64,000 nucleotides of DNA from the NCBI RefSeq assembly GCF_000092425.1, contig NC_014221.1, positions 556,001-620,000 on the forward strand. The letters run 5' to 3'. The translations under genes were made by a program, and so were the position numbers. This document shows, one piece after another, positions 20,311-48,204 of the stretch (positions within the stretch are counted from its first letter, which is position 1; every line of letters begins with the position of its first letter). The DNA comes from Truepera radiovictrix DSM 17093 (GTDB taxonomy: Bacteria > Deinococcota > Deinococci > Deinococcales > Trueperaceae). The notes under the pieces are model-generated. The model saw only the letters and a list, made by a program, of their open reading frames with translations, ran no database searches and was not told the origin of the DNA.

Positions 20311-21143
20311 ACGTTCCCATCTTGCTCTACCATAGCGTCGCCGCCGAGGTCGCGCCCGCTTACGAGCCTTGGGCCGTGCTGCCAGAGCGCTTCGCCGAAC
20401 AGCTCGCCTACGTGCGCGCGCAGCGCTACACCCCGCTGACCGTGTCGCAGTGGCGGCGCCTGCTCGAAGAGCGCGCGCCGCTGCCGCCCAGACCGCTGCT
20501 GCTGACCTTCGACGACGGGCTGCGCGACTTTTACACGACGGCCTGGCCGCTGCTGCGCGCCCACGGTTTTGCGGCGACGCTCTACGTCACGGCCGGGTAC
20601 GTCGGTGGCGTGAGCCGTTGGCTCACCGCCGACGGGGAGGGGCAGCGCCCGATGATGGGTTGGTCAGAGCTCCTCGAGGTGAGCCGCAGCGGGATCGAGT
20701 GCGGCGCGCACAGCCTGACGCACCCCCAGCTCGACACGCTCAGCCGACGCGCGGCGCAGCGCGAGATCGGCGGCTCCAAGGCGCTGCTCGAAGCGCACCT
20801 CGGCTGTGCGGTGCGCAGCTTCGCCTACCCTCACGGCTACCACAGCCGAGCCGTCAAGCGCCTCGTCCAGGAAGCGGGATTTGGCTCGGCGTGTGCGGTC
20901 AAGCACGCGCTGAGCTCCCCCGAAGACGACCCCTTCGCTTTAGCCCGCATCGTCATCTACCGCGACACCGACCTCCTGACGTTCAAGCGGCTGCTCGCCG
21001 GCCACGAGCTGCGCCGCGCCCCCTTCCCCGAAAGTTGGAAGACCCGAGGGTGGCGCCTTGCAAGACGTTCGGCGCGCCTACTTAGAGGCGTTCGTGGCAC
21101 CCTCGCGAAGGGCCCTCACGCGCAAGGAGGGTGGTATGGTTAA
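20307..21143 (+). CDS. NodB-type polysaccharide deacetylase
   Basis: A 278-residue carbohydrate esterase family 4 protein. PILLYHSV opens the fold, LLTFDDGLRDFY holds the catalytic base and metal aspartate, and GAHSLTHPQL gives the HxxxH metal site; YPHGYHS is also typical. It would remove N-acetyl groups from glycan residues, either polymer or lipid-linked units. It overlaps the preceding glycosyltransferase by 4 nt and the next gene by 8 nt, so it belongs to a translationally coupled operon. No signal peptide is evident, which favours a cytoplasmic lipid-linked substrate. Confidence 0.9.
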   Translation: MNVPILLYHSVAAEVAPAYEPWAVLPERFAEQLAYVRAQRYTPLTVSQWRRLLEERAPLPPRPLLLTFDDGLRDFYTTAWPLLRAHGFAATLYVTAGYVGGVSRWLTADGEGQRPMMGWSELLEVSRSGIECGAHSLTHPQLDTLSRRAAQREIGGSKALLEAHLGCAVRSFAYPHGYHSRAVKRLVQEAGFGSACAVKHALSSPEDDPFALARIVIYRDTDLLTFKRLLAGHELRRAPFPESWKTRGWRLARRSARLLRGVRGTLAKGPHAQGGWYG

Positions 21144-22245
21144 CCCCACGGCGCTGCGCGTCTCCGAGCGCCCCACGCGGACGCGGCAGCTGTGCGTCGC
21201 GGGGCTCGCGGTGCAGGTGACGAGCCCCGCGCCCAGGGCGCTCTGGCTCGAGCTGCTGCAGCGCGATCCCGAGGCGTTACCCTCGCAGACACCCCTGTGG
21301 CTCGACGGCCTCTGTGCGCACAAGGGCTACCGCGACGCGAGCCGCTGCTACCGGTTTTCAGATGGGCAGCAGCTGGTGCTGCCGCTGGTGCAGCGTCAAA
21401 GCCTAGGGGCGTGGTCGCCTCAGGCCTCGCTGCCGTACGCGTGGGGGATGGGGGGGGTCGTCGCCGCGCAGGCGCTCGCTGCGCCGCACCTTCGAGCGGT
21501 GTTCGAAGACCTCAGGACGAGCCCGGCGCTGAGCACCAGCGTGCTGCCCAACCCGCGGCAGGGACCCTTGTGGGCGGCGGCCAAACCCGCGTACGTGCGG
21601 AGCCTGCCGCGCCGCGCCCACGTGCTCGACCTCGAGGGAGGGTTTGAGCGCGTGTGGCGCGAGCGCTTCTCGAAGACGACGCGCCGCATGGTGCGCAAAG
21701 CCGAAAGGCTCGGGGTCACGGTGACGTGTGACACCACGGGCCGCCTCGCTCCGGTGGTCTATCGGCTGCGCCGCGCCGCCGTCGCCCGCTGGGCGGCGCG
21801 GCAGCACGAACCCCGTTGGCTCGCGCATCTGCGCGCCGAGCTGCGCGACCCGCAGAGCAAACTCCAACACCTCGCGCGCGTGATGGGGAGCGCGCTGCGC
21901 ATCTGGGTGGCGTGGCGCTGCGGGGAGCCGATCGCCGCCTCGCTCGTCCTCGTGGGCAGCAACGCCGACGACATCCTGGCGGTGATGGACGCCTCGAAAG
22001 CCGCCGCTACCGGCGCCAATGATCTCCTGCTGCGGTTGTCTATCGAGGACGCGTGCAACGCGGGGTGCCGCTACTACCACCTGGGCGAGTCGGGGGCGTC
22101 GGTCGGCCTCGCGCGGTTTAAAGAGCGTTTTGGCGCCCACGCCTACCCTTACGAGGAGTTTTACGTGGAGCGTCTGCCGCTCAACCAGCTCGACCGTGGC
22201 CTAAGGGGCGCCGTAAAACGCGTGATTGGATTTCGGGATGTCTAA
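21136..22245 (+). CDS. FemAB/GNAT-like acyltransferase of the glycan locus
   Basis: A 369-residue protein of the acetyltransferase-6/FemAB-related type often found in exopolysaccharide clusters. Typical stretches are FSKTTRRMVRKAERLGV, WRCGEPIAASLVL and YYHLGESGASVGLARFKERFG. ATG 21136 follows AAGGAGG by 5 nt and overlaps the deacetylase stop. It may re-acylate an amino sugar freed by the upstream deacetylase, which would make a coherent deacetylation/acylation pair; this is inference from context. Confidence 0.82.
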   Translation: MVNPTALRVSERPTRTRQLCVAGLAVQVTSPAPRALWLELLQRDPEALPSQTPLWLDGLCAHKGYRDASRCYRFSDGQQLVLPLVQRQSLGAWSPQASLPYAWGMGGVVAAQALAAPHLRAVFEDLRTSPALSTSVLPNPRQGPLWAAAKPAYVRSLPRRAHVLDLEGGFERVWRERFSKTTRRMVRKAERLGVTVTCDTTGRLAPVVYRLRRAAVARWAARQHEPRWLAHLRAELRDPQSKLQHLARVMGSALRIWVAWRCGEPIAASLVLVGSNADDILAVMDASKAAATGANDLLLRLSIEDACNAGCRYYHLGESGASVGLARFKERFGAHAYPYEEFYVERLPLNQLDRGLRGAVKRVIGFRDV

Positions 22246-23802: not shown

Positions 23803-25656
23803 GTGAAGGTATCCAACCAGAGGCCTAAAGTCGGGGTGTTCGTGGGGCGCCGCGCTGCGCCAGCCGCTCGCGTCGGGCGCGGCGCCGGCGACCTCACCCG
23901 CTTTGTCGTAGCGCTGCTCCTCAGTTTGGGCTTCGGCGCTTGGCTGCTGTCGCTCGCGCGTCTTTCCCCCGCTGACATCGACGCTTTCGGGCTCGTCGGC
24001 GCGCTCCCCGTAACCTACTGGCTCGCGCTCGTGAGCACCCTCGCCGTCTTCGTAGCGTGCTTGGGCAAAACCGCCGCCGCGTACTACCTCGGTAGCGTCG
24101 TGCTCCTGATCGTCTACCTGCACGCGACGCCCGCGCTCGTCTACGACGGTCTGCGTTACCCGTGGGTCTACAAACACCTCGGGCTCGTCGAATACATCGG
24201 GGTGTACGGCGCGGTCGACCCGCTCATCGACGCCTATCACAACTGGCCCGGCTTCTTTGCGCTCTGGGCGCTGCTCACCGAGACCGCGCAGCTGCCGCTC
24301 GAGGCGTTAGCGGCGTGGGCGCAACCCTTTTACAACCTGCTCTACCTGCCCCCGCTGCTGCTGTTCTGTCGCGCCTTTAGCCAAGATGCCCGCGTGGTGT
24401 GGTTGGGGGTGTGGCTCTTCTACCTCACCAATTGGGTGGGGCAGGACTACTTCGCACCGCAAGCGCTCGCGTATGTTTTCTACCTCACCGTACTGGCCTT
24501 TTTGCTACACCTCTTTCCGCGGCGTGACAACCGCCTGACGAGAACCCTCGGTCCAGGGGCCGCGCGCCTCTTGCGGACGACCTACCGTCCCCCCGAGGAG
24601 CCCGAGCGTTACACCGGTCGGCGGGCGGTGCTAGCGTACACGCTCGCGCTGCTCGCCTTTGCCGCGATGGTCTACAGCCATCAGCTCACCCCGTTTGTCA
24701 CCATCGTCTGCGTGATCGCGCTCGCGGCGGCGGGCGTTGACCGTCTGCGCGTGACCGCGCTTCTTTTCATGGCGCTCACCGCGCTCTGGCTCACCTTTAT
24801 GGCGACGGGCTACTTAGGTGGGCACCTTACGGAGCTCCTCTCGGACCTCGGCGCGATCGGGCAGAACGTCGAGCGCAACGTCGGCGAGCGGCTTACCGGG
24901 GCGCCCCAACGCCAGCTCGTGCTCAGCGTGCAGCTCGGCTTGTCGGTGGCGCTGTGGCTGCTCGCGGGTGCGGGGCTCGTCAAGAGTTGGCGGCGAGGGC
25001 GCAGCGATCTGGCGCTCGCCGCCTTGGCGTTCGCGCCCTTTCCGCTCCTCGCGCTGCAGCCGTACGGCGGCGAGGCGCTGCTACGGCTCTACTTCTTCAC
25101 CCAACCGGCGATGTGCCTGCTCGCCGCGCGCGCTTTGCTCCCCGATGGCGCCCCCAGGGTCGGGGCGAGGCGTCGGGTCGCGCTCGGAGCGCTTTCCGGG
25201 GTGCTGTTGGGGGGGCTTGTCATCGCTTACTACGGCAACGAAGCGGTCAACTACGTCTCCGCGACCGAAGCCGAGGTGTTTCGCGCCCTCTACGACACCG
25301 TGCCGGAGGGTTCGCTCCTCATGGCGGTCTCGCCCAACTACCCGCTGCGCAACTCGGCCTTTTACTACCGCGTGGTGAACACCTCGCTCGTACAGCAGCT
25401 TCGTCCGGAGCCCTTTGAAGCGGTGTTCGTCGACGAGGGGGTCGTCGACGTCAGCGCGCTCGTGGCGTACATGCGCGAGTTCCCCCACGCCTACCTGGTG
25501 TTTTCGGACGTGCAGCGCCGCAACCTCGAGGTGTTGCGCCCCGTGCCCGCCGCCTCGGTCGCGGCGCTCGCGCGTGCGCTCGCGACCGACCCGGCGCTCG
25601 AGGTGTTCTACCGAGCGGGTGACGTGGTGATCTATACCCTGAGGAGGGCGCCGTGA
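23803..25656 (+). CDS. Large polytopic membrane protein, GT-C-like
   Basis: A 617-residue protein with at least ten hydrophobic helices and a C-terminal soluble domain of about 130 residues. An early loop with acidic residues (VGALPVTYW, IGVYGAVDPLIDAYHNWPG) recalls GT-C glycosyltransferases, which use polyprenyl-phosphate sugars outside the membrane, but no signature is decisive. GTG 23803 follows a GAGGTG site. Its TGA overlaps the GTG of the next gene, so it is translated with the transposase-fusion protein. It could alternatively be a glycan polymerase or ligase. Confidence 0.75.
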   Translation: MKVSNQRPKVGVFVGRRAAPAARVGRGAGDLTRFVVALLLSLGFGAWLLSLARLSPADIDAFGLVGALPVTYWLALVSTLAVFVACLGKTAAAYYLGSVVLLIVYLHATPALVYDGLRYPWVYKHLGLVEYIGVYGAVDPLIDAYHNWPGFFALWALLTETAQLPLEALAAWAQPFYNLLYLPPLLLFCRAFSQDARVVWLGVWLFYLTNWVGQDYFAPQALAYVFYLTVLAFLLHLFPRRDNRLTRTLGPGAARLLRTTYRPPEEPERYTGRRAVLAYTLALLAFAAMVYSHQLTPFVTIVCVIALAAAGVDRLRVTALLFMALTALWLTFMATGYLGGHLTELLSDLGAIGQNVERNVGERLTGAPQRQLVLSVQLGLSVALWLLAGAGLVKSWRRGRSDLALAALAFAPFPLLALQPYGGEALLRLYFFTQPAMCLLAARALLPDGAPRVGARRRVALGALSGVLLGGLVIAYYGNEAVNYVSATEAEVFRALYDTVPEGSLLMAVSPNYPLRNSAFYYRVVNTSLVQQLRPEPFEAVFVDEGVVDVSALVAYMREFPHAYLVFSDVQRRNLEVLRPVPAASVAALARALATDPALEVFYRAGDVVIYTLRRAP

Positions 25657-27161
25657 CGCCTCTGCACCAGCGGATCGAGCTGCCACTTGTCAACCTCATC
25701 CTGAGCGGCGCAGCGCTCGCGGTCCTCGCCGCCGAGGCGCCCGCGGCGCTGCGCGCGCCCGTCGTGCTCGCCTTTGTCTTGTTCGGCCTCGGGCTCTCAG
25801 CGCTGCAGTTTCTCAGCTTCGGGGAGCTCGTCGCCGACCTGAGTTTCGTGCTCGCGGCGGGGCTCGCGCTGGTGACGGCGCTGACGGCTGCTATGCTCTA
25901 CCTCGTGGCGTGGTCGCCGCAGACCGCCCTGCTGACGCTCGCGCTCCTCTGCATGGCGCTGGCGCTCACCCGCTTGGGGTGGCACCTCAAACCCCGCTGG
26001 CAGCGCCGCGGGCGCAGCGGCCAGGTCGCGAGCCGCCTCGAGGCGCCGCCCCGCCAGACGCTCCAGGGGGGCACGCCGCTCGGGGGGGGTGCCGGGCGCG
26101 TGGCTGAGCAGGGCGCGCTGCGGGACCTGCTCGAGGGGCATGTGCTCGCCGAGATGGTGTGCCTCGCGACCTTGGCGGTGCTGTGCGGGGCCAACAGCTA
26201 CACGCAGATCCACCAGTACGGCCTAGCGCAAGAGGCGTGGCTGCGGAGCTTTCTGACGCTGCCGTCGGGGGTGCCGTCCCCGGAGGCCTTCGCGCGGCTT
26301 TTCGCGGTGCTGCGCCCCGACGCGTGGCGGCGGCAGCTGCTGGCGTGGACGCGGGCGCTCGTGTCGAGCGCGCCCGAAGCGCCGGGTAGCGCGTCGGTGG
26401 CTGACAGGGACGCCCCCGCCCCCGAGGGGCTCGGTGCGGTGCGCGTTGCTTTGGGCCAGAACGGGCTCGTCCTGGCGCAGCGCCCGGGCGACGAACGCGC
26501 TCACGTCGCGGCGATCCAGGAGCTTGCGACCCTCATCGAGCTTGGGGGCGCCGTCGTGACGACGGGCGCGCACCAGGGGCGAGACGTCGCCTGGACGCTG
26601 CGCGAGCACCGCGCCCACTACGTGCTAGCGCTCCAGGAGCACCCCGGGCTGCTCGCGAGCGTCCGGGACGTTTTCGGTTACGCCGACAAGCTCACCTGGA
26701 AGCTCGAGCACAGCTACCTCGAAACCTCCAAGCGGGAGGGGGAGCGCGAAGCGCGCCGTGAGTGCTGGGTCGTGCCGCCCCCCGAGTGGCTCCCCGAGCG
26801 CGAAGCTTGGCGCGACCTCGCGAGCCTCGTCAAATTGCGTTTAAGCCACACCGTCGGCGACGACACCTTGACCCGAACCCGCTACTTTCTGAGCAGCCTG
26901 CCCCTCGAGGCCGAACGCGCCCTTCACGCCACGCGTTCGTGTGCGGAGGGGGGCTGTGGTTGGCACTGGGTTTTGGAGGTGCCTTTTGAGGAGGATCAGC
27001 GCCCGGCCCGTCGCCAGAGTGCGCAGGCGAGCTGGCGCGCCCTCCGGCAGCTCGTCGCGGAGCTTTTAAACCGTGATGAAACGCTCGGGGGCGGCGACCT
27101 TCGGGCCAAGCGCCTGCGCGCCGGGTGGGACCGTGCCTACCTCTTTAAGCTCCTCTGCTAG
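25653..27161 (+). CDS. Membrane protein fused to a catalytically dead ISAs1/H-repeat-type transposase domain
   Basis: A 502-residue protein without a close precedent known to me. Residues 11-110 form about four hydrophobic helices; 111-155 are a basic/Gly-rich linker; 156-502 match ISAs1-family (H-repeat) transposases along their whole length: LATLAVLCGANSYTQIHQYG, SGVPSPEAFARLFAVLRPD, NGLVLAQ, GAVVTTGAHQGRD, HYVLALQEHPGLL, TRYFLSSLPLEAERA, WHWVLEVPFEED and KRLRAGWDRAYLFKLL. The first catalytic aspartate motif (IDGK) is absent, and the second (TDAMGCQ in relatives) reads TGAHQG, so both Asp are lost; only a candidate Glu (E366) remains. The frame is intact and overlaps the upstream stop by 4 nt, so this is a domesticated domain, not IS debris. 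Confidence 0.85.
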   Translation: MTPLHQRIELPLVNLILSGAALAVLAAEAPAALRAPVVLAFVLFGLGLSALQFLSFGELVADLSFVLAAGLALVTALTAAMLYLVAWSPQTALLTLALLCMALALTRLGWHLKPRWQRRGRSGQVASRLEAPPRQTLQGGTPLGGGAGRVAEQGALRDLLEGHVLAEMVCLATLAVLCGANSYTQIHQYGLAQEAWLRSFLTLPSGVPSPEAFARLFAVLRPDAWRRQLLAWTRALVSSAPEAPGSASVADRDAPAPEGLGAVRVALGQNGLVLAQRPGDERAHVAAIQELATLIELGGAVVTTGAHQGRDVAWTLREHRAHYVLALQEHPGLLASVRDVFGYADKLTWKLEHSYLETSKREGEREARRECWVVPPPEWLPEREAWRDLASLVKLRLSHTVGDDTLTRTRYFLSSLPLEAERALHATRSCAEGGCGWHWVLEVPFEEDQRPARRQSAQASWRALRQLVAELLNRDETLGGGDLRAKRLRAGWDRAYLFKLLC

Positions 27162-27256
27162 CCGCCGGCCGTTGGTGTTCTCGACGAGGGTGCAACGGTG
27201 AGACGCCAGAAGAATCGGCCGAACGACACTTTTTCGGAGAGTTTTGGTGACTGGAG

Positions 27257-27460
27257 TTGACGACGTTTTTAACCACCCCGACGTTCTCTTGGCTCTCTAG
27301 CGTGGTGCTGTCGCTCGCGCTAGCGTTTTTCGTCGTCTTGGCCTACGCTGCGCTCAACCCGCGCGGCACCCTATACGAGAGGATGCGGCGGTTTGACCTC
27401 CTGGTCTTCGCCCTCTTTGCGCTCGTCATCAGCGCGCACCTCTGGCTGTTGGTCCGTTAA
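27257..27460 (+). CDS. Small two-helix membrane protein
   Basis: A 67-residue frame with two hydrophobic helices (SSVVLSLALAFFVVLAYAAL and LLVFALFALVISAHLWLLV) separated by a short basic loop (GTLYERMRRFD). The TTG start has GGAG immediately upstream, a weak site. It follows the transposase-fusion gene by 95 bp and may be the last gene of the glycan operon. No family is recognised. Confidence 0.5.
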   Translation: MTTFLTTPTFSWLSSVVLSLALAFFVVLAYAALNPRGTLYERMRRFDLLVFALFALVISAHLWLLVR

Positions 27461-43035: not shown

Positions 43036-43388
43036 ACGGTAGGGGTTCGGTAGGGGAGTGGCTTGCGCGGCCACTCCCTTCCCCTATGTTGTAAGAAGCA
43101 GATCTACTTCGCCGGGCTTTTTGCCTTTGTCGCCAAACAAAAGGGCTTGCGTTTTTTTGTTACATAATTCCTCTACGTAGTAACGATGCAGGGGCAAATT
43201 CCGGACATGAAAGCAGCGCACCTTCGGCATGCTCGCTCCTTAACTGTCTTAATCGTTTGTTCATAGAAGGCCATAGAGCTTGACGTCTATTTTTTTTTTT
43301 TGAGCATATTAACCTCAGTCAACCACGATAAACCGCTCCAGCGGTTGACCGTTCCATCGTGATGGGCTGGGGCAACGGGGAGGCAGGA
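43036..43388. other. AT-rich gap with hairpin and promoter-like T-tract
   Basis: No gene is seen. GGGAGTGGC/GCCACTCCC (43052-43076) forms a hairpin just after the nuclease gene, a probable though T-poor terminator. From about 43085 the composition turns AT-rich and stays so to about 45640. A 12-T run lies at 43290-43301 near a promoter-like sequence. Confidence 0.5.
43280..43310 (+). promoter_or_regulatory. Promoter-like site with 12-T spacer tract
   Basis: TTGACG (43280-43285) and a weak -10-like CATATT (43305-43310) flank a spacer of 19 nt made mostly of T12. Loss of one or two T would give 17-18 nt, the optimum. Slippage in such tracts can switch promoters on and off; here this is only a hypothesis. 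Confidence 0.35.
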
Positions 43389-44651
43389 ATGCACCGTAGC
43401 CGATGGGTTCTTTCTGTGTCTGTTAATTTAATTTTGGTTGCTCTGGTTGGATGTAGTCAAAGCGTAAGTCCACTTCCGGGAGAAGAATTCGACCTTTTAC
43501 AGGATGCTCAGCCTGTTCCCCCTCTTATTGCTCAGCTCCAAAGCCTTGACCGCGCCTTGGAAAATGGTTTGAGTCTTCAAGGTGTCAGTAATTTACATAT
43601 GGCAACGCTTACGGTAGAAGACTTCTATGGCAACCCTTTCGTTCATGTAACCGTCACTTCACCCATTCCTATAGGTGAGCTCTGGGCATTTGCCGCTACA
43701 TTGAGTGGTAAAGAATGGCAAGGAGATTTAGAGGGGAGCCCTTGGAATATAGCCATTACGGGAGCAACGACGGCTTCCTACCCTCAATCCATGAACGGGG
43801 TGGGCTTGGAAACGCTTATAGATTTTAGAGATACCATTACAGCTATGGGGGGGCCGAGAAAGCTCAGAAGAGTAGTTGCGGCTATGTCGACCATCTTCTT
43901 GCTGCAAGATATCAATGGGGTGTACTGGAACCCCAACACGCGAGCTCCAGCGGAAAGTGAACTACTCTCTTTTCTCAGAAGTAACTACGATGAGATGGTA
44001 TCGGCTAACAACTCACCAGAGTTGCAAGAACAGCTAGCCGCCCTCTGGGCACCTTACCTAGAACCAACTTCACGAGCCAGTGCCGTTTTAAACTTAGATC
44101 TCCACCCTGACTTGGCTTCTGCCGATGGAAGTCTCAATCTGAAGCGGGCTGCTGAGTTATTGCGAGACAACAAAAACTTCACACCCCAGGTGAGAAGGAT
44201 CCCCAAGGTCGTTTGTGAGTATGTTCTCGGGTTTGCTGTGTGCTATGACCTTCTGCACGGTTACATTAACCCGCGGCATCAAGCACGTAGCGGGGCGTAC
44301 TCTCAACACCCATACTTCTTCGGGTGGAAAGACACGCATACCTTCAAAATGCCAAATTGCGCTCCAAAAGGGGGAGTTGTACAAGGCGCCCCTCTCGGAT
44401 GCGGTCCGGCGTCTTTTATAAGCCTGGTGTGGCGATTATGGGCAGATGGCGAAGTTTTCTATGATAAGAAATACAATGGTGAACCGTTTGGTAAGGATAA
44501 GTATGGATTCTTTTGGCCTTATCGGTCGAGCAAACGAGAATCAGATGACGTTGACTACAGCCCTGTAGATTCAATTGCCGTCAACATGACAATGAGGTCA
44601 AGCCACTACGAACGACCTGTTATTGCGAGCTACATGGGATCGTGCTTCATT

Positions 44652-45221
44652 ATTCCAAGCGTAAGGTTGAAACCACCGCCTTTAGGCGGTCAGATTTCAT
44701 CTGCTAGCCTTGGCGGATGGAGTATCGCTATGGCAGCCATACCGTCTTCAACATCGAGTACCACTTTGTGTGGGTCACGAAGTACCGCTACAAGGTGCTG
44801 AAAGGGGACATAGCCGAGCGTGTTAGGGAGTTGGTGCGGCAAACCTGCGAGGCGTTCGAGATACGGATTCTGAGCGGAGTGGTGAGTAGCGACCACGTGC
44901 ATATTCTGGTGAGTGCGCCGCCGACAATGGCGCCGAGTGAGATCATGCGGCGGATCAAAGGGCGAAGTGCGAGCAAGCTATTCGAGGAGTATCCGAAGCT
45001 AAAAGCACGTTATTGGGGGCGGCACTTTTGGGCTAGAGGGTACTTCTGTGCGACGGTGGGGCAAGTCACGGAAGAGATGATCAAGAGCTACCTGGAGCAT
45101 CACTTCGAGCCGACCCGAGAGGACAACTTCAGGACAGAGGACTGACGGGTCTATGACCCGTATCCCGACTTTCAGTCGCTCTTTCAAACCCTCCGACTTT
45201 AGTCGGTGGTTGTTTAGTGTT
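44652..45221 (+). mobile_element. IS200-type insertion element, tnpA only
   Basis: About 570 bp. Ends were placed by restoring the host reading frame and a C39-family motif (CFI then RGTMTTG). Left hairpin ACCGCC-TTTA-GGCGGT (44675-44690) and right hairpin CCGAC-TTTA-GTCGG (45193-45206) are the subterminal structures recognised by Y1 transposases. There is no target duplication, as expected for single-strand transposition. Exact ends may be off by a few bases. Confidence 0.8.
44717..45145 (+). CDS. tnpA: IS200/IS605-family Y1 transposase
   Basis: A 142-residue HUH transposase. YHFVWVTKYRYKVLKG opens the fold, SSDHVHILVSAPP carries the HUH motif (H60, H62), and EEMIKSYLEHH the catalytic tyrosine (Y125). 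All catalytic residues are present, so the element may be active. There is no tnpB beside it. Confidence 0.95.
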   Translation: MEYRYGSHTVFNIEYHFVWVTKYRYKVLKGDIAERVRELVRQTCEAFEIRILSGVVSSDHVHILVSAPPTMAPSEIMRRIKGRSASKLFEEYPKLKARYWGRHFWARGYFCATVGQVTEEMIKSYLEHHFEPTREDNFRTED

Positions 45222-47603: not shown

Positions 47604-47809
47604 TGAGCAGCCCCATCAAACAGGCGGCCAATACCCTGCCGGGCTGCCATTGCACCCCACTTGAAGCCCTCCTCGAGAACTGCACTGAACAGCTTGTGCA
47701 GGAGTACAAGTTCCTCTCCGACAACGACCTTCGTATTGTCGAACTGGTGCGAGAGGCACTGAAACGGGGCGTAGAACTCGCCAACAGCCGGGTAGGGGAC
47801 TTTCTCTGA
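47603..47809 (+). CDS. Small ORF 2 of the IS605-type element, 68 residues
   Basis: A 68-residue mostly helical protein with two cysteines near the start (PGCHCTPLEALLENC) and a charged C-terminal half (LVREALKRGVELANSRVGDF). It overlaps the stop of ORF 1 and the start of tnpA (TGATG). I do not recognise it. It may assist or restrain transposition, or be cargo. Confidence 0.65.
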   Translation: MSSPIKQAANTLPGCHCTPLEALLENCTEQLVQEYKFLSDNDLRIVELVREALKRGVELANSRVGDFL

Positions 47810-48204
47810 TGCCCCGCGCCTACCAGCACAAGACCACCTCGGTATTCCTCTTGAACTACCATCTCGTGTGGATACCGAAGTACCGCAAGAAGCTGCTGGT
47901 AGGGCGCGTCAGTGACAGGCTCAGCGAACTGCTTAACGACAAGTGCGAACGGATGGGGTGGGAGGTCATCGCCTTAGAGGTGATGCCCGACCACCTCCAT
48001 CTCTTCATCGGCGCTGACCCCAGCACCTCGGTGGATTGCATCGTTCGTCATCTCAAGGGCTACACCTCCTTCAAGTTGCGGCAGGAGTTTCCACATCTGG
48101 CGCGGTTGCGTAGTCTGTGGACGCGCTCGTATTTCGTTTCGACCGCTGGTAACGTCAGCTCCCAGACGATTGAGCGGTATATTGCAGAGCAGAGGAAACG
48201 CTGA
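47809..48204 (+). CDS. tnpA: IS200/IS605-family Y1 transposase
   Basis: A 131-residue HUH transposase with [13 protein letters not shown] (H62, H64) and [10 protein letters not shown] (Y124). It cuts and joins single-stranded element ends at the subterminal hairpins. It differs strongly from the other tnpA in the window, so the two elements are unrelated by recent duplication. Start and stop overlap neighbours (TGATG on both sides). Confidence 0.95.

Follow-up and report, generated by a model that had tools for sequence, protein, structure and literature searches.

Truepera radiovictrix is a bacterium tolerant of heat and radiation, and its genome (a single contig of 3,260,398 bases) holds, as a single copy, a gene in which a membrane domain is joined to a transposase-derived one. 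The gene lies on the forward strand of the 64,000-nucleotide stretch that was analysed here (the window, to which coordinates refer), and its position, its parts and its two partner genes are listed in Table 1. The frame is uninterrupted over all 502 codons, and its GTG start overlaps the stop of the upstream gene by 4 nt; both an intact frame and a start overlapping the preceding gene had been claimed in an earlier note on this DNA, and both claims are borne out. The genes on the 5' side code for a double family-2 glycosyltransferase, a polysaccharide deacetylase, a protein of FemAB/GNAT type, a flippase-like protein with many helices, and the 617-aa membrane protein; it is reasonable, though unproven, to see a glycan operon in this cluster. 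The 617-aa protein has no family match in Pfam or NCBIfam, and is GT-C-like as judged by its layout only. The FemAB/GNAT-type protein (21058-22245) has a weak match, far under the cut-off, to the XrtA/PEP-CTERM-associated FemAB family. Further along the window, two small ORFs resembling IS200/IS605-type TnpA genes (44717-45145 and 47809-48204) are found in a low-GC patch, and the first of them runs into the end of a lipoprotein-like ORF (43359-44801), which it may interrupt.

Table 1. The fused gene, its parts and its partner genes (positions in the window).
Feature	Position	Strand	Basis or remark
617-aa many-helix membrane protein, partner gene in conserved trio	23803..25656	+	homologues elsewhere
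Fused gene, 502 codons	25653..27161	+	open frame
Residues 1-118, four-helix membrane domain	25653..26006	+	profile match, helix spacing
FGLG (residues 44-47) in place of the CPG of relatives	25782..25793	+	otherwise invariant Pro lost
Residues 119-162, linker, 83% GC	26007..26138	+	terminal repeat not recognisable
Residues 163-233, ISAs1 N-terminal helical domain (PF13808), well preserved	26139..26351	+	Pfam, identity
Residues 234-345, first half of catalytic core, eroded	26352..26687	+	alignments
TTGAHQG within the core, second Asp replaced by Gly	26559-26579	+	alignments
Residues 346-425, beta-rich insertion domain, preserved	26688..26927	+	identity by region; Tn5-like fold in model
Residues 426-450, catalytic Glu region	26928..27002	+	alignments
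SCAEGGC replacing HWGIEN	26937-26957	+	alignments
Residues 451-502, C-terminal region, preserved up to natural end	27003..27158	+	identity by region
67-aa two-helix membrane protein, third gene of conserved trio	27257..27460	+	position as in relatives

A profile search for an ISAs1 match, which the earlier note had proposed, returned the NCBIfam model of ISAs1 transposases (NF033564) over residues 169-472 with 166 bits, the cut-off being 70, and Pfam DDE_Tnp_1_assoc (PF13808) matched residues 163-233 with 58.6 bits. The transposase part (residues 163-502) extends to the natural C-terminus, but the first ~26 residues (the PDPR region) are unrecognisable, so that the fold falls somewhat short of the full length ascribed to it before. 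The N-terminal domain of such transposases is usually held to contain the DNA-binding part. The nearest relative, in another Trueperaceae genome (G017), is a standalone 376-aa transposase with 49% identity and perfect 20-bp inverted repeats.

In every alignment TTDAMG has become TTGAHQG (residues 303-309) and HWGIEN has become SCAEGGC (429-435), with Gly in place of both the second Asp and the catalytic Glu. The DGK motif was lost through a small in-frame deletion, and its Asp pairs with D251 in one alignment and with D253 in another, while two further alignments place a gap there (a mixed alignment covering the entire fusion was left out of the analysis, its middle being misaligned). The earlier claim that both Asp motifs are gone holds for the second Asp and for DGK as a motif, but perhaps not for the DGK Asp itself, which may survive as D251 or D253; in either case there is no complete DDE triad, the state of the first Asp depending on the alignment. 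Among 56 strongly conserved ISAs1 columns the fusion has lost 32, and each of 17 independent ISAs1 relatives loses 0-6. As the sequence reads, it can no longer transpose: the DDE triad has two of its residues replaced, and terminal repeats are unrecognisable.

The membrane part had been described as four hydrophobic helices, which we locate at about residues 8-26, 37-55, 59-77 and 91-109. Against a profile of 32 standalone four-helix relatives, residues 1-109 score 50 bits (best of 1000 local shuffles, 11.4); an earlier profile, made from three relatives only, had given a weak match (P = 0.016). The score equals that of the lowest-scoring standalone family member, and the spacing of the helices is the same as in these; the invariant Pro is replaced by Leu and a near-invariant Ser by Gly, with the Gly of the motif kept. 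By profile and helix spacing, residues 1-109 can be assigned to a family of small four-helix membrane proteins.

The fusion also starts where such proteins are encoded at other loci. Behind their homologue of the 617-aa gene, G001 (of the same genus), G018 and G002 have a standalone four-helix gene of 114-124 aa, and then a small two-helix gene. Homologues of the 617-aa protein (29-39% identity) are found in three related genomes and, in a collection of one genome per species, at 80 loci of other bacteria, 46 of which were inspected for the next gene; in at least 31 of these 46 the standalone four-helix gene stands directly behind, the same 4-base overlap being usual among relatives, and the two-helix gene comes after it in 15 of the 31 (16 counting L034). 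The three genes form a membrane trio (a 617-aa many-helix protein, a four-helix protein of 113-163 aa with a CPG motif, and a two-helix protein of ~60-87 aa), which is widespread and apparently unnamed, with members in Chloroflexota, Actinomycetota and Trueperaceae (window 23803-27460; loci L021, L022, L023 and L031-L110).

Since the four-helix domain stands alone behind the 617-aa gene elsewhere, and the rest of the protein matches ISAs1, the fusion goes back to an ISAs1 insertion, and it is close to certain that this took place at the 3' end of the four-helix gene, ahead of the two-helix gene. The ends of the element would then have been lost and the frames joined, and translation of the chimera would begin at the ancestral start, which overlaps the stop of the gene before it. 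Neither end is recognisable today: the 18-nt end of the G017 element finds at best 10/18 matches on each side, which is chance level and agrees with the earlier observation that no IS ends flank the gene, and junction alignments around the fusion are within the range of shuffles. The linker (residues 119-162) probably stems from the left end of the element, now eroded. In the G017 element the codon that corresponds to His163 lies 114 bases from the left end, and the same distance here leads to residue 125, near the usual end of the standalone four-helix relatives, although this is coordinate arithmetic and not proof.

The earlier note had suggested looking for the fusion beside the same glycan genes in other genomes, and in this respect the result was negative: a second fusion was seen neither among 111 genomes of the phylum nor at the 80 loci with 617-aa homologues, none of which has an ISAs1 match nearby. 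A scan of contigs with the whole fused protein gave no relative, and in the 61 and 111 related genomes searched the relatives begin to align no earlier than about residue 161-163; no orthologue at this locus turned up in other species, and a single genome is known to carry the fusion. It had also been argued that, if the two parts were separate in related genomes, the fusion would be a recent accident. Half of this holds: the membrane gene is standalone there and ISAs1 is separate with its ends, and therefore the fusion is specific to the T. radiovictrix lineage, though old by its composition. A recent accidental fusion is disfavoured by the host-gene-like composition and the lost IS ends. Searches of the open literature, mostly at the level of lists and abstracts, gave no report of a domesticated ISAs1 protein, and one on H-repeat/Rhs gave no match; a link of the fusion to Rhs or H-repeats would be conjecture.

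A fusion in one genome only, in which both halves are without residues that their families never or almost never lose, could be a slowly decaying relic, i.e., an accidental fusion with a functionless passenger tail, open because stops are rare at high GC. We regard such a relic as a serious alternative, though a less likely one than retention. The fused frame has 0 stops in 502 codons (4-9 in the other five frames), so that stops and frameshifts, the signs of a pseudogene, are absent from it, although the high GC helps the open frame. Neutral simulations from the G017 element ended without a stop in 0-6% of runs at the observed loss and in 0.3-11% at lower loss, and when started from the window's own codons the frame stayed open in 0.5-20% of runs; under the strong GC mutation bias, the upper values (6% from G017, 20% at the mildest settings) are what the relic can claim. 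The composition speaks against it: the GC of the fusion by codon position is 0.746/0.513/0.855, that of the window genes 0.702/0.505/0.859 and that between genes about 0.61, and the third-position value exceeds both the intergenic one and that of intact ISAs1 relatives (GC3 0.27-0.63).

A second ISAs1 relic is present in the same genome (G000:C1:3183202-3184162; L145:1703-2663), frameshifted and with a GC of 0.57/0.41/0.61, and keeps the catalytic motifs TADA and HWTIEN. Its pattern of decay is opposite to that of the fusion, in which all indels are in frame and the losses are concentrated in the catalytic core, and these points also weigh against a relic. Regarding the losses, the identity to G017 in the N-terminal domain, insertion and C-terminal region is 0.61, 0.47 and 0.63 (0.62, 0.51 and 0.62 between intact elements), and it is lower in the core (0.37 vs. 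0.65 intact) and the Glu region (0.44 vs. 0.92 intact). Columns agreed by two intact elements were lost in 40/116 cases outside the core and 49/91 inside (Fisher p = 0.007, with region borders drawn by hand), where intact controls show no such contrast (p = 1.0 and 0.49); the loss of 30-34% outside the core, together with the 32 lost conserved columns and the missing Pro and Ser of the membrane domain, points to some relaxation throughout the protein. A motif-based test gave p = 4e-4 to 8e-7, for motifs picked after the alignment was seen and with an alignment-dependent DGK row, so that we rely on the comparison by region instead; a runs test found no significant clustering of losses among the 56 conserved columns (p = 0.30). 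The simulations and the core-concentrated losses make uniform neutral decay less likely.

In the codon model, omega was 0.16 on the fusion branch, a value that partly reflects time as an active element, and 0.048 in the background. The dN/dS check proposed before gave a divided answer: at non-motif columns omega was 0.13 and omega = 1 was rejected (2dlnL 13.3), a rough estimate as synonymous sites are saturated and lineages differ in composition, but at motif columns omega = 1 was not rejected on the fusion branch. The earlier idea of domestication is partly supported, by a dead ISAs1 domain in frame with a membrane domain in an apparent glycan operon and by signs of long-kept coding, and is weakened by the single genome.

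The AlphaFold2 model of the fusion, built from 18 sequences, has a mean pLDDT of 75 and a pTM of 0.49, with confidence above 90 over most of the N-terminal domain, a likewise confident beta insertion, and low confidence around the first strand of the core and in the Glu loop; a poor earlier model (5 sequences, pLDDT 53) gave only meaningless structural matches. A Foldseek search with the 18-sequence model gave no match under E 0.001 in the PDB and viral sets. When the candidates were re-aligned, the top five solved structures were all the Tn5 transposase or its inhibitor (Z 8.1-6.3; next 4.0), the best being the inhibitor 1b7e (Z 8.1, rmsd 3.8 over 153 residues), and the part aligned with it is the RNase H-like core, not a DNA-binding domain. 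On these re-aligned rows the predicted fold of the transposase part would agree with the sequence in being that of a DDE transposase.

Taken together, we find it somewhat more probable that the fusion has been kept as a protein than that it has not, and the reading we prefer, with a probability of roughly 0.52, is an old fusion that is still made as protein and has kept its non-catalytic parts, with a tail that acts as a binding or scaffold domain and not as an enzyme. The four helices would hold the protein in the inner membrane and the transposase tail would be cytoplasmic, because an Arg-rich stretch comes after helix 4. A weaker step is that selection may have kept the N-terminal helical domain, the beta insertion and the C-terminus; if these non-catalytic parts are kept, the tail would therefore be a binding or scaffold domain on a membrane subunit, and this subunit would work beside the neighbouring 617-aa protein.

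A membrane-tethered DNA-binding protein, i.e., a regulator of the glycan genes or a dominant-negative blocker of ISAs1 in the manner of the Tn5 inhibitor, seems unlikely to us. The N-terminal domain is indeed as close to G017 (61%) as intact elements are to each other, and among solved structures the Tn5 inhibitor matches the model best, though via the RNase H-like core; however, the locus has lost the terminal repeats to which a domain of this kind would attach, the insertion site already explains the membrane part and an acquired tether is not needed, and a binding site, a target and a partner would all have to be postulated. We give just as little weight to a dead transposase exapted as the cytoplasmic domain of a polysaccharide-machine subunit, binding DNA or the ISAs1 enzyme for gene control or IS defence, and DNA binding or regulation by the fusion is speculation, as is the coupling of membrane state to gene expression that the earlier note had in mind.

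If the preferred reading of a fusion kept as protein is right, the locus represents a bacterial intermediate that is rarely seen, in which an insertion sequence is turned into a new domain of the adjoining gene, its core lost and the rest kept, with the second ISAs1 relic, decaying ordinarily in the same genome, as a built-in control. The locus also reveals the unnamed and widespread membrane-gene trio, here within a glycan cluster.

Compared with known systems, the fusion shares with ISAs1 transposases (NF033564) the profile match over 169-472, the N-terminal associated domain, the length and the natural C-terminus, and differs from them in the replaced second Asp and Glu, the DGK deleted around a possibly surviving Asp, the absence of terminal repeats, the membrane domain and the single copy. 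The Tn5 transposase inhibitor (1b7e) is likewise a non-transposing form of an RNase H-like transposase, but it is soluble, without N-terminal residues and with the active site retained, whereas the fusion has no active site left and begins with a membrane protein. As in the domesticated prokaryotic mobile-element proteins of PMC8987985, part of an immobilised element appears here as host coding sequence; the examples in the portion of that source drawn on here either retain a nuclease or integrase function or come from phages, unlike the fusion, which has lost catalysis and is known from one genome. With the four-helix proteins behind the 617-aa family the fusion has in common its position, overlapping start, four helices and 50-bit profile score, and it departs from them in the loss of CPG and the conserved Ser and in its 380-residue transposase-derived tail (119-502), most relatives ending near residue 113-163.
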